The notes beneath the pieces are model-generated. The model was not told where the DNA came from. It saw only the letters and a list, made by a program, of their open reading frames with translations, and did not search any database. A stretch of 32,178 nt of DNA from the NCBI GenBank assembly GCA_003223255.1, contig QHYJ01000085.1:1-32178 (forward strand), in the 5' to 3' direction. Of the stretch, positions 16,084 through 30,317 are shown in pieces. The DNA comes from Acidobacteriota bacterium. GTDB lineage: Bacteria; Acidobacteriota; Terriglobia; Acidiferrales; UBA7541. The translations under genes were made by a program, and so were the position numbers. The stretch's first letter is position 1, and every line of letters starts with the position of its first letter.

Positions 16084-18015
16084 ATGCGAGTCGTTTGCTC
16101 CTCGGCTCTGCTCCTCGCTTTTTGTGTTCTGTTCTTCTCGCCCAGTCTATGGGCGGCGCATGAGGATACGTGGCTAGAGGTCCGGTCGCCTAATTTCACG
16201 GTTATCAGTAATGCCGGCGAAAAAGAAGCTCGCAAAATAGCCGACCAGTTCGAGGAAATCCGTGAAGTCTTCCATAGCACTTTCGTGAAGATGCGCGTCG
16301 ATTTAGGCAAGCCGGTAATCGTCTTTGCCGTCAAGAACGAAGATTCCATGAAGTTGCTGCTCCCGGCGTTTTGGGAAGTGAAGGGCCACATGCATCCCGC
16401 GGGTGCGTACCAGCCAGCGGAAGAAAAGCATTTTGTAGTGGTGCGTACGAATATCGAAGGCCCGAATCCCTATGAGATCGTTTATCACGAGTATACTCAC
16501 GCCCTAATGAATATCAATTTTCGCGATTTGCCTGTCTGGCTCAACGAAGGTATCGCCGAGTACTTCGGCAACTCCATGATTCACGACAACTACGTCGAAA
16601 TCGGCAAGATCGCGCCTTACCACCTTCAAATCCTCCAGCAAAACAAGCTCATCCCCGTACCTGCACTCCTTCAGGCGGACCATTCTTCCCCGTATTACAA
16701 CGAGAACAACCGTGCCTCGGTGTTCTACGCCGAATCGTGGGCCATTGTGCACTACTTGCTGATGGATCCCGAGGCTCGCAAACGGAATCTGTTTCACGAC
16801 TTCCTCATCGCCTATGAGGCCAGCGGAAATTGTGTTGACGCTGCACAGAAGACCTTCGGAGATTTGCATAAATTTGCCCAGAGAATGGAAGCATACTCCC
16901 GCCAGACCTCCTTCTTTGTAGGGAACGTCAAAACTTCCATTCATGGCGGCGCAAAAAGCTATTCGAGCCGTGTTCTTCCGCCTGCCGAAGTCAACTCCCA
17001 AAAAGGAGAGCTTTACGTCTACACGCAACGGTTCGAGGAGGCTAAGTCCTCCCTAGATGCCGCCGTGCAGGCCGACCCCAATCTTCCCCTCGCCCATGAG
17101 GGCCTGGGCATGCTCGCCTATTACGAGAGAGACTTGGGCAACGCCGAGAAAGAATTTGCGCGCGCCGTGCAGCTCAACTCCGCCAGTTTTCTGGCTTATT
17201 TTTTTTCTGCGCGCGCCAAGGTGCGGGAAGGGGGTATAAACTCCGAAAATGGCCCTGCAGTCGTGGCCGATCTCGAAAAGGCCATCAGCCTGAATCCGCA
17301 GTTCGCGCCAGCCTACGCTACGCTCGCCACTTTCTACTCGATGAGCCCGGATACACGGGAGAAAGCCCTGGCGGCCGGACGGAAGGCCATTGAACTCGAG
17401 CCCGGTAACCTGAACCACGCCGTCTCGTATGGTTTTGTACTGCTGAGCATGGGCAAGACTGCGGACGCGAAAACTCTCGCTTCCCGGATCCAATCCGCCG
17501 CGCGAACTCCCGTGGAGCGCGCCCTTGCGCAAGAGTTTTCACAGGCCATTTCCATGCGGGAAACCTTCGGGGATCCGCGAGCTCCCTCTGTGCAGGTGCA
17601 GAGGAGGTCTCCCTATAAGGAACCTCCCTCGAAAACTATCGAGACCTCGCATGGCTCCGCGGACAAGCCTCCGGTCGAGGTGGAAGCGCCGCGGGCTTCA
17701 ACCCCGGCCGAGGGCTCCGAACCGCCTGACGAAATGAGCAGCCGTACTTACAGCCTGGAAGGAAGGATCACTGCGGTAAATTGCGCTAGCGGCGTTCCCG
17801 GGACCTTGGCTCTGAAGATCCAGTCCGTTCTGATGAACTTCCATTACTCAGATTTCTCAAAAGTCGAAGTGAGCAGCGGGGGCAATTCGTCGGGCGCCGC
17901 GTCTGCTGCTCTCCCCGCGTGCGCATCCTTGCAGGGCCGCCGGGCCAGAATCACGTTCCATCCCGCACCGAATAAGGACTACGATGGAGAACTGATCTCG
18001 GTTCAAGTCTTTTGA
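16084..18015 (+). CDS. Secreted gluzincin-type peptidase with TPR repeats
   Basis: 643 residues. Signal peptide 1-24. Zinc-peptidase signature YHEYTHALM (H135, E136, H139) with the third ligand in PVWLNEGIAEYFG (E155 or E159), the HExxH...E spacing of peptidase MA/DUF1570-like gluzincins. TPR-like repeats follow at about 305-480 (LPLAHEGLGMLAYYERDLGNAEKEF, split across helices; PAYATLATFYSM; NHAVSYGFVLLSMGK), then a low-complexity Pro/Ser/Glu linker (about 500-555) and a C-terminal beta-rich domain (SLEGRITAVNCASG ... LISVQVF). It is probably periplasmic or exported; the substrate is unknown. ATG 16084 follows GGAGGTGCT. No operon partner. Confidence 0.87.
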   Translation: MRVVCSSALLLAFCVLFFSPSLWAAHEDTWLEVRSPNFTVISNAGEKEARKIADQFEEIREVFHSTFVKMRVDLGKPVIVFAVKNEDSMKLLLPAFWEVKGHMHPAGAYQPAEEKHFVVVRTNIEGPNPYEIVYHEYTHALMNINFRDLPVWLNEGIAEYFGNSMIHDNYVEIGKIAPYHLQILQQNKLIPVPALLQADHSSPYYNENNRASVFYAESWAIVHYLLMDPEARKRNLFHDFLIAYEASGNCVDAAQKTFGDLHKFAQRMEAYSRQTSFFVGNVKTSIHGGAKSYSSRVLPPAEVNSQKGELYVYTQRFEEAKSSLDAAVQADPNLPLAHEGLGMLAYYERDLGNAEKEFARAVQLNSASFLAYFFSARAKVREGGINSENGPAVVADLEKAISLNPQFAPAYATLATFYSMSPDTREKALAAGRKAIELEPGNLNHAVSYGFVLLSMGKTADAKTLASRIQSAARTPVERALAQEFSQAISMRETFGDPRAPSVQVQRRSPYKEPPSKTIETSHGSADKPPVEVEAPRASTPAEGSEPPDEMSSRTYSLEGRITAVNCASGVPGTLALKIQSVLMNFHYSDFSKVEVSSGGNSSGAASAALPACASLQGRRARITFHPAPNKDYDGELISVQVF

Positions 18016-19313: not shown

Positions 19314-21689
19314 TTATTTGGTGCTTGAGTGACCTGATCGATGTGCATTTTGGTTCGTCGTGCGCCAGCGACCGATCTTGGCCACGAAGGCATCGGAATC
19401 CGGCTCGCCTCCGTGACCGGTCGCAATGGGATTGACAAGAGGAAAGTTGCCGGCAAAGGTGAATCCCGTGATGTAGGCTTCACCAAACGAATCTACGGCG
19501 ATGCCCCGCCCCTGGTTTTCATCGGTGCCGCCGAGGCACGTGGAATAAAGAAGGGTGTTACCCGTAGCATTTAAGTTCGAGACAAAAACATCCGGCCCGG
19601 AAGCGCCAGCGCAGGACTTGAGGGAGTGCATAGTGGGGAAGTCCCCCGAGGAGGTAGTTCCTAAAACGTACGCGTTGCCGAAGGAATCCACAGCGATGCC
19701 GTAGCCGATGTCGTAATCGCTTCCGCCGAGATAGGTGGAATAAACTAGCGCGCTGCCCGCGGCATTGAGCTTAGAGACAAAAGCATCATAGTAGCCGCCA
19801 AAGGTACTCTGAGAGGCCCCGCTGGTGGTGGGAAAGTTGGTGAAGATGGTTTGTCCGGTGACGTAAGCGTTGGCGGAGGAATCCACGGCAATGGCATAGC
19901 CTTGGTCTCCTCCGTTTCCCAAATACGTGGAGTAAACGAGACCGGTGCCGGCGGCGTCGAGTTTGGTCACAAACACGCCACCCGCGCTGGTGCTATCGAA
20001 GGCCCCATTGGTGGTGGGAAAGTCGGAGGAAAGCGTAGCGCCTGTGACGTAGGCGCTGCCAGACAGGTCCACGGCGACACTATTGCCTTGGTCTTCGGCA
20101 CTACCTCCGAGATAAGTGGAGTAAACCAGTCTGGTGCCATCCGCGCTGAATTCGGTGACAAAAGCATCGCTGTTGCAGCCACAGGTTGTCTGGAAAGCTC
20201 CGGTAGTTGTGGGGAAGTCGAGCGATTGGGTTAAGCCAGTCACATAGGCGTTTCCGGAAGTGTCGACCGCGATCGCATTGCCGTGGTCGTTGCTGCTGCC
20301 ACCCAGATAGGTCGAGTAAACCAGAGCGCCGCCGTCGGGGCTGAATTTTGCTACAAAAGCATTCGGACCAACCGTAGAGGCGAGATGGGGCTGGACGGCG
20401 TTCGCGGTTGGGAAGTCCGGCGAATCCGTCGTTCCCGTGACATAGGCGCTACCGGAAGAATCCACCGACACGCCTGAGGCCACGTCATCGTAGCTGCCAC
20501 CCAGGTAGGTTGAATAAACCACAGCGTTGCCAGCAGGGTTGATTTTCATCACAAAGACGTCTTCATACCCTCCACCCAACGCCGGCTGGCGGGCGTTGGC
20601 GGTGGGGAAGTCGGCGGAGTGTGTAGCACCGGACACATAAGCGTTCCCCGAGGAATCTACGGCAATGCTGTTAGCCCAATCGGCGCCGCTACCGCCAAGG
20701 TAGGTCGAATAGACCAGTACGGGGTCGATGATCAGAGGCTTGGTCTTGTCATAGCTAGGAATGTCGAATCCTATGCAGTTATTGGCGACCACAAACTTTG
20801 CCTTCTGAATAACGATTGGTGAATTGGCCGAGCCACTGTTCGGAACGCCGGGCTGATACACACGCGGTTTAAGAAGGCGAACCTCGCCGAAGGCCAGCCC
20901 AACCACTAGGTCGCCATTTCTGTCCATGCCAATTTTCGAATTTGGATTCTCGATTTCCAAGCCGATGGTCTTCGGATTGGCCCCAGGGCCAACCACAAAG
21001 TCGTATTCGAACTGCCGCTGATGGCCGTAATAGACGAGATCAATCCCGGGATAGACGCCTTCGTATTTCACCTTGGCATAGGTCGGCACGTTCGTGCGCC
21101 ACTTCTTCGGGTCCTTACCGCTGAAGTAGTTCGACTTGCCCGGCAGTTCGTCGAGCCCCTTGACCTTTACGGCCCGATTCGCGCCCACCAATCTCATGCG
21201 CAAGACTTCGGGAGCCTGGGACTCGGAGCTAGGGGTTTGCGACCGAGGTTCGCGCGGCGCAAAGTTATTGTCTAACTCTGCGGCCTGTAGATGGAAAAGA
21301 TCCAGCGCACGAGACCCGAGGGAAACGTTCACGTTGCTTCTTCTGCCCTTCGACTTTTGCGCTGCATCGTTGGCATTGCGCAGGGTCAGAACGGCTTCGT
21401 CGCCTCTAAGCAACAGGTTGTATCCGCTGCCTCGCGAGAGAAACTTCACACTTGGATCCATCTGGCCCAGGTTAGCTTCAAAGCTCAGGGGCAGCTTGCC
21501 ATAGCTTTCAAGGAATGCTTGGTTCGCCGGGCTTTGCCGATTCGCCTGATGAAAGCCGTGTCGCTGAGCTTGGATTGGAATTGGTCGTGTCGCTTCCCCT
21601 CCTGACAGGATGAGTACGGACAGGGTAGACAACAGGAATATGGGAACGACAAGCTTCCAAAAGTGATGCGGCGATGCACACCTCAACAT
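19314..21689 (-). CDS. Secreted SBBP-repeat (beta-propeller-type) protein
   Basis: 791 residues. After an N-terminal membrane/signal segment (about 12-30) comes the usual N-terminal domain of this group (LSFEANLGQMDPSVKFLSRG ... YEGVYPGIDLVYYG). From about 330 there are seven repeats of roughly 60 residues, each with the pattern VYSTYLGGS..D.....AVDSSGNAYVTG.T.S.DFPT, as in SBBP-repeat proteins thought to form a beta-propeller on the cell surface. The protein ends soon after the seventh repeat, without an Ig-like or anchoring tail. ATG 21689 follows AAGGGGGATCCT. The function is unknown, likely extracellular binding or structure. Confidence 0.9.
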   Translation of the reverse strand: MLRCASPHHFWKLVVPIFLLSTLSVLILSGGEATRPIPIQAQRHGFHQANRQSPANQAFLESYGKLPLSFEANLGQMDPSVKFLSRGSGYNLLLRGDEAVLTLRNANDAAQKSKGRRSNVNVSLGSRALDLFHLQAAELDNNFAPREPRSQTPSSESQAPEVLRMRLVGANRAVKVKGLDELPGKSNYFSGKDPKKWRTNVPTYAKVKYEGVYPGIDLVYYGHQRQFEYDFVVGPGANPKTIGLEIENPNSKIGMDRNGDLVVGLAFGEVRLLKPRVYQPGVPNSGSANSPIVIQKAKFVVANNCIGFDIPSYDKTKPLIIDPVLVYSTYLGGSGADWANSIAVDSSGNAYVSGATHSADFPTANARQPALGGGYEDVFVMKINPAGNAVVYSTYLGGSYDDVASGVSVDSSGSAYVTGTTDSPDFPTANAVQPHLASTVGPNAFVAKFSPDGGALVYSTYLGGSSNDHGNAIAVDTSGNAYVTGLTQSLDFPTTTGAFQTTCGCNSDAFVTEFSADGTRLVYSTYLGGSAEDQGNSVAVDLSGSAYVTGATLSSDFPTTNGAFDSTSAGGVFVTKLDAAGTGLVYSTYLGNGGDQGYAIAVDSSANAYVTGQTIFTNFPTTSGASQSTFGGYYDAFVSKLNAAGSALVYSTYLGGSDYDIGYGIAVDSFGNAYVLGTTSSGDFPTMHSLKSCAGASGPDVFVSNLNATGNTLLYSTCLGGTDENQGRGIAVDSFGEAYITGFTFAGNFPLVNPIATGHGGEPDSDAFVAKIGRWRTTNQNAHRSGHSSTK

Positions 21690-22021
21690 AGGATCCCCCT
21701 TGATCAGAACCCGCAGTTAGCGATTTTTTTGTTATGGTCTGGTGAAACGAACAGAAGGAACGGGGATGGGCGTGTGGAGCGCTTCGCCAGCCTGCTGAAG
21801 CGTAGAGACGTCAGGCGCGAAGGTCAATCGGGTATAAGCTGGACATAGTAAGCGGGGAACTCTGTAGAAAATCTATAGGGGAAAGGATTTCACACAGCAG
21901 AGCCTACGTCTTACACAAGGAGTGACCCTCGAGAAGCCTATTTGGACGCTGCGTATTACGAAACCGCGCGCCATGGAACACACCAGATAAGTTGCCACGC
22001 GGTGCGCCACGACTCAGAAGT
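21690..22021. other. Gene-free spacer
   Basis: It should hold the promoter of the SBBP gene (leftward). No gene, repeat or convincing promoter was recognised. Confidence 0.4.
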
Positions 22022-22323
22022 CTATTGAGTGGCTTCGATAGTGAGTCTCAGACCGATTGCCTTGGTGACGGCAACTAGCGTGGACAGACGGGGGTTGCCG
22101 TGAACGGACAAAGCGCGGTAAAGACTCTCACGTTCGATGCCTGCAGCCTTGGCAACTTTGGCGATGCCCTGAGCATGGGCTAGGTGGCGCAAGGCAATTA
22201 GCAGGACGCGGGCTCGTCCTCATCTTCCAAGGCAGCTCTGACGTACTCCGCAGCAAAATCTGGGTCTTTGCGGAGCCGACGAATGATGGCCTGGTCGTGT
22301 GAAATACTGGCTTTGCGTTTCAT
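22022..22323 (-). pseudogene. HigA-type (addiction-module) antitoxin, frameshifted
   Basis: From ATG 22323 the frame reads MKRKASISHDQAIIRRLRK...AAEYVRAALEDEDEP, then stops early at 22198. The other frame continues correctly: VLLIALRHLAHAQGIAKVAK, AAGIERESLYRALSVHGNPR, LSTLVAVTKAIGLRLTIEAT, stop TAG 22022-22024. This is the helix-turn-helix of the probable addiction-module antidote family (about 99 residues). One base is missing in the GC-rich stretch at 22207-22214. The ATG overlaps the toxin stop (ATGA), so the pair was translationally coupled, with the toxin first as in HigBA. Confidence 0.78.
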
Positions 22324-22676
22324 GAGATTCCGCTCCTTTCTTTGTAATCCTTGAGGTACTCCAACGCTCGTTCGATGTCTGAGGACTGCTTTCGTTTGTC
22401 GCCGCCACAGAGCAGCAACACACATTCTTTGCCAATCATCGCGTAATACACTGTAATACACTCGGTAGCCCTGTCCCCAATCAATCCGGAGCTCGTACAA
22501 TCCCAGGCGTAGAGATTTCAATCGCCAAAGTTCCCTGCGGCAAGCCGGTTGATTCGGATCGTAATCTTCGCCTGTGTGCGGGCATCCGCCAATTGCGTCA
22601 GCCAATCATCAAAGACATCTTCTCCGGCGCGGCTGACGTAGTGACGAATCTCGATCCCATTTTCTTCGATTGTAAC
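22320..22676 (-). pseudogene. HigB/RelE-type (Gp49-like) toxin, multiply broken
   Basis: Three frames together give a complete toxin: ENGIEIRHYVSRAGEDVFDD...INRLAAGNFGD, then LYELRIDWGQGYRVYY, then MIGKECVLLLCGGDKRKQSS...EYLKDYKERSGIS, stop at 22320-22322. The ELRID.G.GYRVYY and LLLCGGDK motifs identify the RelE/HigB ribosome-dependent mRNase family. Lesions: loss of one base at about 22519-22523; a 10-bp tandem duplication at 22443-22462; and no normal start codon (GTT at 22676, directly after an in-frame TAG). The toxin cannot be made as is. Confidence 0.78.
22443..22462. repeat. 10-bp tandem duplication inactivating the HigB-type toxin
   Basis: GTAATACACT occurs twice in a row. Removing one copy restores GYRVYYAMIGKECVLLLCGG in the toxin. 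A ten-base change shifts the frame. Confidence 0.9.
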
Positions 22677-22688
22677 CTATAAATTACA
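22671..22688. promoter_or_regulatory. Dyad at the toxin-antitoxin start, possible autoregulatory operator
   Basis: TGTAA and TTACA arms with an 8-bp A/T-rich spacer lie over the apparent start of the toxin. HigA-type antitoxins usually repress their own promoter at such dyads. The arms are short, so the call is weak. Confidence 0.3.
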
Positions 22689-22837
22689 CTGGAGCAGTCG
22701 CCTTCAGTAAGCGCGACGAGAGTCAGGGTCAGAGAGCTGCGGCAGCGCGGGCGAGCGGGCCTGCGTCCCTCTCCCGACCAGCACGCCAGCCGAAACGGGG
22801 TTGAGAGGCTATGCGCAAAATAAGGCTAACCCTCTGC

Positions 22838-25675
22838 TCAGATTCTGACGTTTTGGTGCGCTAAAGCTCGCAGGATAGCGTCCAGAATTTGATCGAGATA
22901 TTTGCCGACGTCTTCTGAGAGGAACCGGGGAACCCGATAACCGTTCTGCTGCAGCAAGGCATCCTTGCGACGATCTCGCCGGTAGGCTTCAGCGTCGCCC
23001 AGATGTTGTCTGCCGTCCAGTTCGATGGCGATGTGCGACGGCTCGCAAAGCAGATCAACTTCCATGCGGCCCCAGCCATCAAACGGAATTGGCAGCTGTG
23101 CGTTCAGGCGGAACCTCCCGGCCGTCTCGGCTAGCGTTTCCAACCGGCGGTAGAGAAATGCCTCGGTTGCACTGCGCGCTCGATCGGGACTATCGGCATT
23201 GGACGGCGGAATTACGGCAGCATGGACAAACAGTTTCGCCAGAGGAGAATCTACGCCATCGCGCACTAAGCGGCGCACGCTGGCAGCATATTGGCTTTTC
23301 CAGTCGGGATCGACGGGAAGTGGCACATCTGCGGGCCAGCCGGGCACCGCGCTTCCCGGAAGCTGAATCTTGTAGCCGATACTTTCATAGCGGCGACAGC
23401 GGCGGTCGAACATTCGCGCCAGCATCGGCACGTTGAGATCTGCGTAGTCGTAGACACGCACCTCCCGTTTGTTGTCAAAGAGGCGATGCAGCCGACCGAC
23501 ATACTGCGTGATCGTCCCGTGCCAAGAGACGGGCAGCGTCAGAAATAAGGTGTCGAGTCGGGCATCATCAAAGCCCTCCCCAACATACCGGCCGGTTGCC
23601 AAGAGCAGACGAGCCTCCTCCCTAGGAATCGCGGCCAAGCGCTCCTGAATTGCGTCAAGCTCCTTTTTGTGCATCCCTCCTCGGAGCACAATCAGGTTCT
23701 GCACCTCAGCGGTCAATTGCTTCGTCAGAGAGTCAAGATGCTCATTCCGTTCGGTCAACACCAGCGGCGACCGCCCCTCCCGAAGGGCATGGATGACGTC
23801 CTGACAGATAAGTCGATTGCGGTCCTCATCGGCAATTAGTTCTTCATAGAGGTTGTGGAATCGTACCCGCACATCAGGATCCGCCGGTCGCAGCGGGCGA
23901 AAATCAGTCGGGCGAACCACTACCTTATGCTCAAAGGGATGAGTTGCGACACCGTGCCGGACACTGACCCGATACCGGACGGGACCACACTCCATGAAGA
24001 TAATCGGATGCTGGCCATCCTTCCGGGTGACGGTCGCAGATAGGCCCGTCACAAACTTCGCTTTAGCTTGGCGGGCAACCTGCTCAAAGCTTTGGGCAGA
24101 AAGATGGTGGCACTCATCCACAATCAGATGGCCATAATTGCTCACGAGATCGTCAACGAGGCCGCTTCGAACCATGCTTTGTATGACTGCTACATCAAGC
24201 AATCCCGTTGCCTTTGTGCGGCCACCACCGATCCGGCCAACAGTGCGCTCTGGCATTCCGAGGAACGTGGAAAGGCGCTCGATCCATTGATGTTGCAACT
24301 GCCGACGATGTACCAATACGAGTGTATTCACCCCCCGTTGCGCAATCAGCCACGCGGCGACCACGGTTTTTCCGAAGGCGGTGGTGGCAGCCAACACTCC
24401 CGTTTCATGCGCGAGCATGGCATGCGCCGCAACGGTCTGCTCGGGACGCAGTTCACCTTGGAATGTCGCTTTCAGCGGCAGGCCGATGTTGCGCTCGTCC
24501 CGGATCATCGCTTTGATGTTCAGGTCCGATAAGGTTTGACGGACCTCATCCAGGCAGCCGCGCGGCAGGCCTATGTGCTTGGGGTGATCCTCGGCACAGG
24601 CAATAATCCGAGGCTTGTTGTAAGTCGGAAGCCGCATGGCCTGCAATTTGTAAAACTCAGGATTTTGGAACGCCGCCAACCGGATCAGCCGATTGCGGAG
24701 AGCAGGCGGCAACGCATCTTTAGGAATGTATATTTGATTGCCGAGGATGAGTTCCAAGCTCTCCGGCAGAGGGCCGGCGATTGAAGCGTTTGTCCGACTC
24801 CGTGACGCCGGTCTCTTCCAAGGCGTATCTTCATCTTCTTCACTCGCGGGCGCCAAACGTACGCCAATTATCTGGCCCTTTACGTCACCGTGCCGGACCA
24901 TTTCCTCCACTTCTTGCCGGTTGATTTTGCGGATCGCGGACAAGAACTGCCATTGGTCGGGATGCGGAGCGAATCGCTCGTCCAGGAAAACGCTGTTACC
25001 TGATTCTCGGAACCGCTTCTGGAGAGGTAACGCGATCAGGTTGCCGAAGCCGCCCTCCGGTAGTGTGTCTTGATTCGGAAAGAGCCGATCGTAGGAATCC
25101 AGGCCGATTTCGGGGCGGCGTTCCATGGTCTTCGTCAGGATGTAAGTACCCAGCTTGCGCGCCAATGCGGCGGGAACGGCTTCATTGAAAAAGAGCCAAA
25201 CATGCCCGCCGTTGCCTGAGCGGGACCGCTCCAGGGCGGCTGGGACGTTCATTTCGCGGCATGTTTCCAAGAACGCGCCTGTATCTTCCTGCCAGGTTGC
25301 TTTGTCAAAATCGGCGGCCAGGAAGAAACAAGTTTCGTCCCGAAGCATCGGGTAGACGCCCATTACGAATTCCCGACCGTTGTCGTCATGGCCGCAAAGA
25401 TGCCATCGAATTACTTCGTCGGTTATGGCAAGAAAACGTTGGTGCGGACATTCGGAGCATTTGATTCTCGGTTTCTCGCAAATTCCCCGGACCCACTCAT
25501 TGCCGCAAGCTGGCGAGTAACCAGCCCTACCTGTCTGACGGCTCTCGAAGCGTTGCGGATAAACATCCTCTCGTCCCCGAAACAGAGAGCGGAACAGAGC
25601 AATTTTGGCGTGGGCGGGTGAACGTTGATTCACGCCAACCTGCTCGAAGATAGGCAAACTAACAGGTGTAGCCAC
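22838..25675 (-). CDS. TOTE-type primase-helicase with C-terminal DUF559-like nuclease
   Basis: 945 residues in one chain. An N-terminal segment with a Cys cluster (C57, C66, C73, C76) precedes an archaeo-eukaryotic primase domain: AADFDK (acidic DFD 122-124) and SGNGGHVWLFF (153-163). A superfamily 2 helicase follows: Walker A-like ATTAFGKT (430-437, Ala-Phe instead of Gly-x-Gly), VDECHH (519-524), GLSATVTRKDG (544-554), then GRYVGEGFDDARLD and QYVGRLHR. The last ~110 residues (MEVDLLCE...AIELDGRQH...YRRDRRKDALLQQNGYRV) form a DUF559/Vsr-like restriction-endonuclease fold. The TOTE primase family belongs to predicted anti-mobile-element conflict systems. GTG 25675 is the start; no strong ribosome site. 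It is flanked by toxin-antitoxin pairs. Appears intact. Confidence 0.88.
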   Translation of the reverse strand: MATPVSLPIFEQVGVNQRSPAHAKIALFRSLFRGREDVYPQRFESRQTGRAGYSPACGNEWVRGICEKPRIKCSECPHQRFLAITDEVIRWHLCGHDDNGREFVMGVYPMLRDETCFFLAADFDKATWQEDTGAFLETCREMNVPAALERSRSGNGGHVWLFFNEAVPAALARKLGTYILTKTMERRPEIGLDSYDRLFPNQDTLPEGGFGNLIALPLQKRFRESGNSVFLDERFAPHPDQWQFLSAIRKINRQEVEEMVRHGDVKGQIIGVRLAPASEEDEDTPWKRPASRSRTNASIAGPLPESLELILGNQIYIPKDALPPALRNRLIRLAAFQNPEFYKLQAMRLPTYNKPRIIACAEDHPKHIGLPRGCLDEVRQTLSDLNIKAMIRDERNIGLPLKATFQGELRPEQTVAAHAMLAHETGVLAATTAFGKTVVAAWLIAQRGVNTLVLVHRRQLQHQWIERLSTFLGMPERTVGRIGGGRTKATGLLDVAVIQSMVRSGLVDDLVSNYGHLIVDECHHLSAQSFEQVARQAKAKFVTGLSATVTRKDGQHPIIFMECGPVRYRVSVRHGVATHPFEHKVVVRPTDFRPLRPADPDVRVRFHNLYEELIADEDRNRLICQDVIHALREGRSPLVLTERNEHLDSLTKQLTAEVQNLIVLRGGMHKKELDAIQERLAAIPREEARLLLATGRYVGEGFDDARLDTLFLTLPVSWHGTITQYVGRLHRLFDNKREVRVYDYADLNVPMLARMFDRRCRRYESIGYKIQLPGSAVPGWPADVPLPVDPDWKSQYAASVRRLVRDGVDSPLAKLFVHAAVIPPSNADSPDRARSATEAFLYRRLETLAETAGRFRLNAQLPIPFDGWGRMEVDLLCEPSHIAIELDGRQHLGDAEAYRRDRRKDALLQQNGYRVPRFLSEDVGKYLDQILDAILRALAHQNVRI

Positions 25676-26013
25676 GACCGTATTCTACACTCCGCATCCC
25701 AGCAACGCTCCAAGCATCCTCGAACCGGCCAGGTGCTAAGCTGACCAGATTGTGGTTGGTTCGGCCTTGTTCCTCGGCCCGATCGGAGGACGAGGGTTCC
25801 GGCAGATCTTGCCGCGGTCGAGTCTTTTCTCTGCCCATTTCTGGCCCACGGTCGGCCTTCACAGCCTCATTGTCGACCAAGGCCCAGTATGAAACTCAGG
25901 GAACCGTATGGGCTCTTCGCGGTCTTGCGGCAGTCCGCGTTTGCTAATGCCGGTTACACGGTGCAGAACCTATGCGGCGCCTCTCGAAACGCGCCGCCTT
26001 GCCATACCCCACG
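25676..26013. other. Spacer upstream of the TOTE gene and brnTA
   Basis: It must hold the TOTE promoter (leftward) and part of the brnTA promoter (rightward). A 73-codon minus-strand frame (25659-25880, TTG start) reads like plausible protein (VKADRGPEMGREKTRP) but overlaps the TOTE start and matches nothing I know, so it is not called as a gene. Confidence 0.35.
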
Positions 26014-26034: not shown

Positions 26035-26419
26035 TGGTGCGGTTCGATTGGACGAACGGAAGAACAAAAGCAATCGGATCAAGCACGGAATTTGGTTTGA
26101 AGAGGCCCAGAGCGTTTTTAGCGATCCGCATGGACGCCTATTTTATGATCCGGAGCACTCCGAGGATCGGTTCATTCTACTTGGTCTGAGTTCAGCGGCA
26201 AGAACGCTTGTCGCAGTTCACTGTTACAAGGAAAACGATTCCGTGGTCAGGATTATTTCTGCCCGTAAGGCGACTCTTGCTTATCCGGTTGATTCAGCAA
26301 ACCCCCCTATCTTGCACGAAGCTCGAACAGACTGCCTGACAGCTAGTGCCTGGCTGAAGCAACCGGATAAGCAGAAGGCGACTAGAAAGGAGGTGCGCTT
26401 CTATGAGGAAGGAATATGA
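26034..26419 (+). pseudogene. brnT: BrnT-type toxin, frameshifted and carrying a 99-bp insertion
   Basis: Starts MVRFDW; the next frame continues DERKNKSNRIKHGIWFEEAQ, then VFSDPHGRLFYDPEHSEDRF, RIISARKA and, after an insert, KATRKEVRFYEEGI. These are the BrnT hallmarks (KHGI.FEEA..VF.DP, IISARKAT). BrnT is a RelE-fold ribonuclease toxin neutralised by BrnA. Two lesions: one G lost at about 26050-26052, and a miniature element (26276-26374 plus a 9-bp duplication) that adds 36 in-frame residues before the last conserved segment. The 3' end overlaps brnA by 17 bp. Confidence 0.83.
26276..26374. mobile_element. MITE inside brnT, 99 bp with 9-bp target duplication
   Basis: The element is flanked by AAGGCGACT direct repeats (26267-26275 and 26375-26383). 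Its ends are inverted repeats: TGCTTATCCGGTTGATTCAG at the left and, read on the other strand, TGCTTATCCGGTTGCTTCAG at the right (one difference, then C shared by both). It carries no gene. Removing the element and one duplicate restores RIISARKATRKEV, the normal BrnT sequence, which proves insertion. Nine-base duplications fit several DDE transposase families; the mobilising IS is not in this window. Confidence 0.8.
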
Positions 26420-26618
26420 TTTCTCCAAATTGAAGGAGCTGAAGAGCCCGTACGCAAGAAAGAAAAAGGCGGTGGGCATTAACTTGAGTCCGGAAGTCGT
26501 GGACTACTTCAAACGACTGGCGGAAGAGACTGGACTGCCTTACCAGAAACTGATTGATTTGTATCTGCTGGACTGCGCGAGAAGACGCAAGAGGCTGACA
26601 ATGAAGTGGGTTGCATAG
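26403..26618 (+). CDS. brnA: BrnA-type antitoxin
   Basis: 71 residues: MRKEYDFSKLKELKSPYARK, then VGINLSPEVVDYFKRLAEET and GLPYQKLIDLYLLDCARRRK. The linker followed by a strand and two helices is the BrnA ribbon-helix-helix layout (V.I.L....V.YFK.LA.ETG.PYQ.LI..YL). BrnA binds BrnT and represses the operon at palindromic sites. A strong ribosome site AAAGGAGG lies at 26386-26393, inside the toxin gene. The gene is intact although its toxin is broken, so it is an orphan antitoxin that may still act as a repressor or protect against related toxins. Confidence 0.88.
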   Translation: MRKEYDFSKLKELKSPYARKKKAVGINLSPEVVDYFKRLAEETGLPYQKLIDLYLLDCARRRKRLTMKWVA

Positions 26619-29565: not shown

Positions 29566-29895
29566 ATGCCCAAGACTTCCAATAAACATACTCAAGGAGT
29601 TGGAGTCCGGAAGACACGCAGCCTGAAGCCTGCCGAACCTTCCTGGCAGATTCAAACGGCAAAAGCCCGGTTTAGTGAGGTATTTCGGCGGGCTCGGACC
29701 GAAGGCCCCCAACTCATTACGCGGCAAGGCAAGGAAGGTGTGGTGATGATTTCTGACGAGCAATACGAACAGCTTGTCGGCAAGTCTCATCAGCCGAAGA
29801 GTATTGTGCAGTTCTTCCGAGAGTCACCGCTTGTCGGAGTCGATCTGAACTTGGAGCGCGAGAAGGATGAGGGGCGGCGAGAAATCGAACTATGA
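29566..29895 (+). CDS. Phd/YefM-type antitoxin
   Basis: 109 residues. After a basic N-terminal extension of about 27 residues, WQIQTAKARFSEVFRRARTE, then GPQLITRQGKEGVVMISDEQ and YEQL follow the Phd/YefM fold (W....AK..FS.....A...GPQ.ITR.G...VV.IS...Y). The acidic C-terminus (VDLNLEREKDEG) is the part that usually wraps the toxin. GGAG sits 9 bp upstream of the ATG. The stop overlaps the toxin start by 4 bp (ATGA), indicating coupling. Intact; partner of the PIN toxin. Confidence 0.87.
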   Translation: MPKTSNKHTQGVGVRKTRSLKPAEPSWQIQTAKARFSEVFRRARTEGPQLITRQGKEGVVMISDEQYEQLVGKSHQPKSIVQFFRESPLVGVDLNLEREKDEGRREIEL

Positions 29896-30317
29896 GTGGA
29901 TATTTGCTGGACACAAACTGCATCTCCGAGCTTGTGCGCCTCAAGCCCGAGCCGAGCGTGATAGCCTGGATGCAGGCTACAGAGGAGACCTTGCTCTACC
30001 TAAGCGTTCTGACTCTTGGAGAGATTCGAAGGGGGTTGGCAGGACTACCTCAGGGCAAGCGGCAAACACATCTGGAAACATGGCTGGAGATAGAATTGCG
30101 GGCTCGTTTTGCCGGCAGAATTCTGCCGATCGATGTCCTGGTCGCGGATAGGTGGGGCCTACTGGCAGCCAGCGCAAAAAGAGAGGGGAAAACGCTGTCG
30201 ACGATCGACGGCCTGCTAGCGGCGACCGCGCTTCACCACAATTTGACGGTCGTCTCGCGCAACGTCAGCGACTTTGCAACCACGCGAGTGCAAGTGTTGA
30301 ACCCATGGAAAGCATAA
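29892..30317 (+). CDS. vapC: VapC/FitB-type PIN-domain toxin
   Basis: 141 residues with all PIN acidic residues: D7 (YLLDTN), E44 (TLGEIRRG), D106 (STIDGLLAATA) and D127 (SRNVSDF). PIN toxins are Mg-dependent endoribonucleases acting on tRNA or rRNA; the target here is unknown. E13 in CISELVR and the LPIDVLVADRWG segment are typical of the FitB-like branch paired with Phd-type antitoxins. It is the only complete toxin-antitoxin pair in the island. Downstream, an antisense frame of unknown status overlaps its 3' end. Confidence 0.92.
   Translation: MSGYLLDTNCISELVRLKPEPSVIAWMQATEETLLYLSVLTLGEIRRGLAGLPQGKRQTHLETWLEIELRARFAGRILPIDVLVADRWGLLAASAKREGKTLSTIDGLLAATALHHNLTVVSRNVSDFATTRVQVLNPWKA

Follow-up and report, generated by a model that had tools for sequence, protein, structure and literature searches.

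A primase, a helicase and a nuclease in one chain: a candidate single-gene system against mobile elements in an Acidobacteriota genome

We analysed a 32,178-nucleotide stretch of an Acidobacteriota genome (contig QHYJ01000085.1 of assembly GCA_003223255.1), here called the window, around a gene for a primase-helicase-nuclease that a preliminary description had singled out. The gene is read on the minus strand as one open frame of 945 amino acids (aa), from a GTG start codon at 25675 to a stop codon at 22838-22840 (Table 1); that description had given its limits correctly and left the strand unstated. It has a single match within its own genome. Pfam searches placed all three domains above their curated cut-offs: AEP-TOTE (PF22548) at residues 24-258 (E = 2e-100), ResIII at residues 408-550 (E = 1.4e-18; ResIII and DEAD together cover 408-551) and DUF559 (PF04480) at residues 833-938 (E = 4.8e-11, 42.9 bits against a cut-off of 20.6). 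This confirmed the union of AEP primase, SF2 helicase and DUF559-like nuclease first read from motifs alone. The primase has the acidic DxD and SxGxGxH motifs of the AEP/prim-pol superfamily and resembles the A type of CRISPR-associated PrimPol (CAPP_A); the helicase, XPB/RadD-like, has a two-RecA core that bears Walker A, DExH and SAT motifs; and the nuclease joins its profile match to an E...ExD...ExD core. We take the DUF559 tail to be a nuclease of the PD-(D/E)xK/Vsr type. Upstream, the hexamer TAGAAT at 25682-25687, 6 nt ahead of the GTG, occupies the same place in the window and in the related loci L007, L008, L009 and L085; given this position, the mRNA is possibly leaderless. Scanning upstream of the gene for the sigma-70 consensus gave no full promoter.

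Table 1. Coordinates of the gene, its domains and its immediate neighbours in the window.
Feature	Position	Strand	Basis or remark
Whole gene	22838..25675	-	single ORF; 945-aa primase-helicase-nuclease
AEP prim-pol domain, residues 24-258	24902..25606	-	PF22548, CAPP structure, conservation; D122/D124, S153-G-x-G-x-H158
Residues 305-400, aligned with N-terminal part of archaeal XPB	24476..24763	-	model compared with 6p4f_C
SF2 helicase, XPB/RadD-like, residues 408-770	23366..24454	-	ResIII, XPB profile matches, motifs TTAFGKT/DECH/SAT
DUF559 nuclease, residues 833-938	22862..23179	-	Pfam DUF559, 3hrl, conserved E838/E872/D874/E885/D887
Short upstream stretch common to window and a relative	25676..25743	-	contains TAGAAT
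BrnT toxin (26048-26419) and BrnA/CopG-like antitoxin (26403-26618)	26048..26618	+	upstream neighbour of the gene, intact
HigB-like (22323-22676) and HigA-like (22025-22326) genes	22025..22676	-	downstream neighbour; both genes frameshifted

Conservation was followed in 87 aligned rows of the nuclease-bearing clade, namely the window and 86 of the loci L007-L093, with gaps excluded from the counts; L025 was left out as too broken, split loci were represented by their longest piece, and the rows include the repeat records L014/L088, L012/L090 and L080/L093. At the primase active site D122 and D124 were kept in 82/82 rows, and G154 and H158 in 82/83. The Walker A residues G435, K436 and T437 were kept throughout (87/87), as was D520-E521-C522-H523 (86/86); TTAFGKT is the norm across the nuclease-bearing family, and the early impression that this Walker A is unusual has to be dropped. 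Among the nuclease residues, E838 and D874 were kept in 82/83 rows and E872, E885, D887, R899, D901, R902, K904 and D905 in all 83. Four cysteines (C57, C66, C73 and C76), invariant in 57/57 aligned proteins, suggest a metal site. The whole-gene dN/dS was 0.129 against L007, 0.132 against L009 and 0.104 against L008, and lay between 0.08 and 0.21 when the AEP, helicase and nuclease parts were computed separately; such ratios show purifying selection in each of the three domains at the level of the coding sequence. Profile matches, residue conservation and dN/dS together ruled out an artefact or chance motifs.

The solved relatives recovered by sequence were the Marinitoga CAPP prim-pol, the XPB and RadD helicases and, for the C-terminus, the endonuclease-like 3hrl (E = 0.0078 when the window protein was searched by itself, E = 2.8e-8 with a family profile). 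An AlphaFold2 model, built from 57 proteins of the window and the loci (mean pLDDT 82.3, pTM 0.66), matched CAPP 7nqd_A over residues 22-266 (Z 24.3, root mean square deviation (rmsd) 2.0, 196 residues). Its helicase part matched the archaeal XPB 6p4f_C, from an XPB-Bax1-fork complex, over residues 305-765 (Z 24.6, rmsd 3.9, 392 residues) and 7egb_6, which we take to be the XPB of a transcription complex, over residues 278-773 (Z 27.5, rmsd 3.6, 410 residues). RadD also matched this part, both by sequence and by model; the best helicase structures were XPB, several of them complexed with the endonuclease Bax1. Since the 6p4f_C alignment starts at the first residues of archaeal XPB, which correspond to model residue 305, the segment that joins the primase to the helicase resembles, in the model, an XPB N-terminal domain, a part that is presumably the damage-recognition domain of archaeal XPB. 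Modelled as a single domain the nuclease came out poorly (pLDDT 50.8), and the C-terminus was thus identified by sequence. If the model is right, the protein would share with archaeal XPB-Bax1 an XPB-like motor, N-terminal domain included, coupled to a nuclease; it differs in being one chain instead of two proteins and in its added primase, and the Bax1 nuclease is of another kind than DUF559.

A scan of genome contigs found at least 588 stretches, 576 of them encoding a relative, from which the best 80 were retained. The whole three-domain chain, matching the window protein in a single frame from no later than residue 40 to at least residue 930, was present in 66 of these 80 loci; the broken copies comprised 7 split over frames and 7 other short ones, of which several lie at contig ends. 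The relatives are scattered among unrelated bacteria of soil and water. Judged by record title, carriers belong to the Acidobacteria, Planctomycetes, Verrucomicrobia, Proteobacteria including Legionellaceae, Riflebacteria and others, and since nearly all are metagenome bins, individual taxon assignments may be wrong. An evenly drawn sample of phyla gave a match (E ≤ 1e-10) in 94 of 396 genomes, many of these merely general helicases. Among the 29 best matches of that sample (L087-L115, the window's own excluded) seven had a DUF559 tail, two a PLD tail and one a NOV_C tail, and the remaining 19 stop within about 36 residues after the helicase. The PLD nuclease replaces DUF559 on the same core in L112 (genome G250) and L114 (G113), both Acidobacteriota; Pfam was run on L114, and L112 is 85% identical in its DNA. 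The NOV_C domain (PF13020, E = 1e-19) lies directly after the helicase in L115 (G259:C17, about 105804-108352, minus strand; domain at 105804-106091), where the core is split over two frames, and a sequence search of the PDB with this tail gave no match. By these domain assignments the primase-helicase core carries three kinds of tail: DUF559, PLD and NOV_C.

We then placed the tails on a FastTree tree of the primase-helicase part (112 rows, with L115 outside the tree). The DUF559 form made up one side of a single branch (86 rows, support 99), the PLD pair was one change, and the tail labels needed two changes overall. Four DUF559 labels were assigned by kinship (L016, L076 and L085, cut by contig ends, and the shortened copy L084); dropping the first three and calling L084 tail-less raised the count to three changes. 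Phylum labels needed 13 changes against a minimum of 8, with 42 of the 112 rows unlabelled, which agrees with horizontal transfer, short of proof. A distant blastn search of E. coli genomes with the gene DNA gave no match, and no description of a primase-helicase-DUF559 chain appeared among the top matches listed in openly licensed literature.

Within the genus, a match occurred in 8 of 28 sampled genomes, the window's own included. Four of the eight carry the nuclease form, namely the window, two relatives (97% and 90%) and a fragment with which one contig starts; the other four carry the nuclease-less form. This patchy presence speaks against a fixed housekeeping gene. The genome of L007 has the beta-propeller gene that lies near the window gene, followed by a piece of a HigB-like gene with no primase gene there, its primase copy being on another contig. 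To compare flanks, five near-identical repeat records were removed first (L062, L081, L088, L090 and L093). There were 27 pairs with genes at least 80% identical, and exclusion of 7 nuclease-less or PLD pairs and of 7 with less than 300 bp of flank left 13 usable ones, which share members and hence are not independent. Upstream, DNA similarity stopped within 68 bp in all 13; downstream it stopped within 172 bp in 11, the exceptions being L007-window, where it ran for 786 bp, and L035-L038, where it ran for 1500 bp or more. As a control, a stretch of about 12 kb of the window's genome was collinear in genome G452, and collinear with a rearrangement in G460. The window and L007 have 21992-25695 in common at 93.6%, with their outer flanks unshared, and the window and L009 have 22773-25743 in common plus one 79-bp stretch elsewhere. 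The ends of similarity varied between pairs, which speaks against a transposon with fixed ends, judged solely by comparing those edges and with no dedicated search for target duplications. As a separate observation, L009 has a duplicated segment (6010-7055/12950-14035 and 9349-9928/15304-15889) with the primase gene between the copies, where the gene follows a truncated frame that is PIN-like by eye.

These distributions bear on a first alternative, suggested by the XPB, Bax1 and RadD matches: a one-chain enzyme of DNA repair or damage tolerance, spread by horizontal transfer, in which an XPB-like part would recognise and unwind damaged DNA, DUF559 would nick it and the prim-pol would resynthesise or reprime, somewhat as in XPB-Bax1. 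DUF559 is similar to very-short-patch endonucleases, which agrees with such a role. Mutants in a prim-pol of a Thermus mobile element, all of them also without addAB, showed plasmid instability and fragmented genomes in the part of the account available (PMC9751324). Yet the gene is very patchy even within its genus, and its tail exchange and unsteady neighbourhood are unlike a core repair gene, so that we regard repair as an unlikely explanation, if still one to be reckoned with.

Nuclease-less relatives were found on mobile elements. By tblastn, 56 plasmid records cover at least 80% of the protein, and among the 40 of these 56 matches listed none extends past residue 789. Nine plasmid loci were inspected: five have three tyrosine recombinases beside the gene, in one the gene comes after TniB and TniQ, and three have neither (one of them unannotated); recombinases or transposition genes therefore lie beside the nuclease-less relative in 6/9. 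The five with recombinases (L003, L004, L005, L154 and L156) are on alphaproteobacterial plasmids and presumably resemble recombinase-in-trio elements. At the sixth locus (L153, 1832-7310, on pTB1 of Sphingobium yanoikuyae), the primase-helicase gene stands after TniB and TniQ with 4-bp overlaps, in an apparent transposition operon. The C-terminal 175 residues, the DUF559 tail, matched nothing among 72,556 plasmids and 50,697 phages (E ≤ 1e-5). None of the 50,697 phage records covers 80% of the protein, which speaks against a phage-borne gene, and the sole relative among viral contigs is without the nuclease.

The core itself is already known. The CAPP_A helicase type and its non-CRISPR relatives have a homologous prim-pol followed by a helicase, and section 6 of the paper on them describes prim-pol-helicase as the commonest non-CRISPR CAPP architecture, typical of mobile elements (Zabrady et al., 2021; PMC8211822). 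The nuclease-bearing form is thus a variant of a described core, set apart by a C-terminal DUF559 in the same chain that section 6 of that paper does not mention. The PADLOC model for CRISPR-associated PrimPol matched the window protein (E = 1.1e-92), and the NCBIfam model for CAPP type A1 gave 75 bits, below its cut-off of 200. A search for exact 21-mers in at least 3 copies spaced 45-90 detected a synthetic control and found no CRISPR-like array in the window and 115 loci (1.36 Mb); an association with CRISPR, as far as arrays can tell, was rejected for these 116 loci. Ten window proteins were also scanned; apart from PrimPol, matched by the gene itself, and a CARF-deaminase model, no Cas model was among the hits.

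The elements that carry nuclease-less relatives raise a second alternative, a gene of mobile elements, whose primase-helicase would aid replication or integration and whose nuclease form would be selfish, moving by its own endonuclease. The recombinase and TniB-TniQ loci, the ascription of non-CRISPR prim-pols, mostly with a helicase, to mobile elements (in section 6 of PMC8211822) and the end of similarity just beyond the ORF in close copies would all agree with it. The single copy in the window's genome, the ends that vary from pair to pair (as judged from edges, no dedicated target-duplication search having been made), the absence of the DUF559 tail from the plasmid and phage collections searched, and recombinases that are not constant neighbours of the nuclease-bearing form make it, in our judgement, improbable.

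The Pfam name of the primase domain would point to a third possibility, that the protein serves as effector in a TOTE conflict system, the heading under which the preliminary description had filed it. TOTE stands for TPR, OB, TBP and Effector, in the text available of PMC12458937. The likeness lies in the AEP domain, which matches the Pfam family named after TOTE strongly (PF22548), and an effector domain is present as a DUF559 nuclease in cis. TBP (PF00352) was found in 0/31 carrier genomes, the window's and 30 others, by a search that could miss divergent TBPs and was positive in 4/14 control genomes, all archaea. A TPR-OB protein was not recognised beside the gene among the window ORFs scanned (not all were) and the families listed at the other loci; a TPR protein in the window at 16084-18015 matched TPR and peptidase-MA/DUF1570 and has no OB domain. 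Unlike TOTE systems, the window gene is single, and we found no recurring partner. The label AEP-TOTE is misleading, being the name of a domain family and no proof of a TOTE system; we did not file the gene as one, and an effector role of that kind appears very improbable indeed.

Further parallels come from systems with a helicase and a tail nuclease. DdmD of DdmDE, a helicase-PD-(D/E)xK protein that attacks plasmids, likewise unites an SF2 helicase and a C-terminal nuclease of the PD-(D/E)xK superfamily in one chain, as far as its description can be compared; it differs in having an Argonaute partner, and a primase domain goes unmentioned in the available parts of that account (PMC12409362). 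YprA of ARMADA, a system tested as a defence system, is a helicase with a C-terminal Vsr nuclease; ARMADA is multi-gene, and the word 'primase' is absent from the available text (PMC12458937). As DdmD and ARMADA YprA-Vsr exemplify, defence systems repeatedly combine a helicase with a tail nuclease.

The neighbours of 116 loci, nuclease-bearing and nuclease-less, 76 of which have flanks of 1 kb or more on each side, were clustered. No partner recurred: the largest neighbour family, AAA_14-DUF4143, was present in 8/116 loci, a result in keeping with the earlier idea of a possible one-gene system, and the survey revealed no steady housekeeping context among homologues. Neighbour ORFs were called by a simple longest-ORF caller, and of 368 selected, PADLOC was run on 289 and Pfam on 150, with a final batch of 78 and one very long ORF (L040:12828-18785) left out; the 150 came from 33 loci (the window and L007-L038). 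Among the families listed for these 150, phage integrase occurred 4 times, Recombinase (PF07508) 3 times and DUF4143 3 times, and AbiEii, AbiEi, Schlafen AlbA_2 and AAA_21 were each seen twice. The control comprised 129 of 219 ORFs from 20 stretches of seven Acidobacteriota genomes and is a rough match, as the neighbours come from many phyla. Only two hydrolase families reached 3 there among the 25 families listed, in which two-member families may be missed; phage integrase, Recombinase and DUF4143 did not reach 3, and AAA_21 was 2 in both sets.

Patchy occurrence, tail exchange and a neighbourhood in which no partner recurs led us to favour a self-sufficient role against mobile elements over repair, a selfish or helper gene and a TOTE effector. 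We give roughly an even chance to the gene being a stand-alone, single-gene, nuclease-based system of this kind. We infer the substrate, the order of steps and the defence role, and the scheme would run as follows. The XPB-like motor would load on abnormal invader DNA, such as single-stranded stretches, forks and ends of a replicating phage or an entering plasmid, perhaps with help from the primase domain and the conserved cysteines in it, and would then translocate and unwind it. The DUF559 tail would cut the exposed DNA. The prim-pol would prime or fill in on the single strand, either making a double-stranded substrate for cutting or spoiling the replication of the invader. On its origin we are more doubtful, and only tentatively propose that a chromosomal one-gene immune class arose by welding nucleases (DUF559 here, PLD and NOV_C elsewhere) onto the primase-helicase of mobile elements.

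Several points weigh against this defence reading. XPB-like helicases and prim-pols are also classic parts of repair and replication. In genus-mate G428 the propeller gene, the HigBA-like genes, BrnT and BrnA stand in the window's order with the primase gene missing, and the joint corresponds to window 22586/25994, inside the HigB-like gene; because that gene is truncated there, G428 seems to have lost the primase gene by deletion, rather than the window having gained it by clean insertion. Loss of common flanks would also be expected of any gene that is transferred often, and the flanks of near-identical repeat records do agree with those of their twins. The split between chromosomes and elements is suggestive only, because elements from these phyla may be scarce in the plasmid and phage collections. 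The preliminary description had seen a defence-like island with toxin-antitoxin pairs on both sides; the upstream pair stands, and the downstream HigBA-like pair is decayed. PADLOC models matched 258 times in 150 neighbour ORFs and 152 times in 139, against 135 times in the 129 control ORFs, in a tally that counts models, several of which can match one protein. Enrichment of defence genes around the gene is not clear against these arbitrary stretches, and the proposed island is supported only in part.

If the proposed origin from an element's primase-helicase is true, the replication helper of an element has been turned into a weapon against elements, and one polypeptide would recognise, unwind, prime and cut invader DNA. 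CRISPR-associated prim-pols are the studied case for primases of predicted conflict systems (PMC8211822); here a primase, a motor and a nuclease share one 945-residue protein with no recurring partner. Natural counterparts on mobile elements lack the nuclease and further versions of the core have different tails, so that simple mutants and swaps could show what each part does.

The remaining observations concern the surroundings of the gene in the window. The toxin of the upstream pair is BrnT by Pfam (PF04365, E = 5e-23), and its partner matched CopG (E = 2e-5) and BrnA antitoxin (E = 1.6e-4), both below the curated cut-off. Homologues of the HigBA-like genes in L132 were typed as Gp49 and dnstrm_HI1420 antitoxin. 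At 29566-30317, 4 kb further along the window, there is another toxin-antitoxin pair (Phd/YefM-like and PIN). Also near the gene are a flavoprotein, an HSP20 and the beta-propeller protein (19314-21689), a 791-aa SBBP protein with DUF7948 that has homologous loci in G428 and in the genome of L007.

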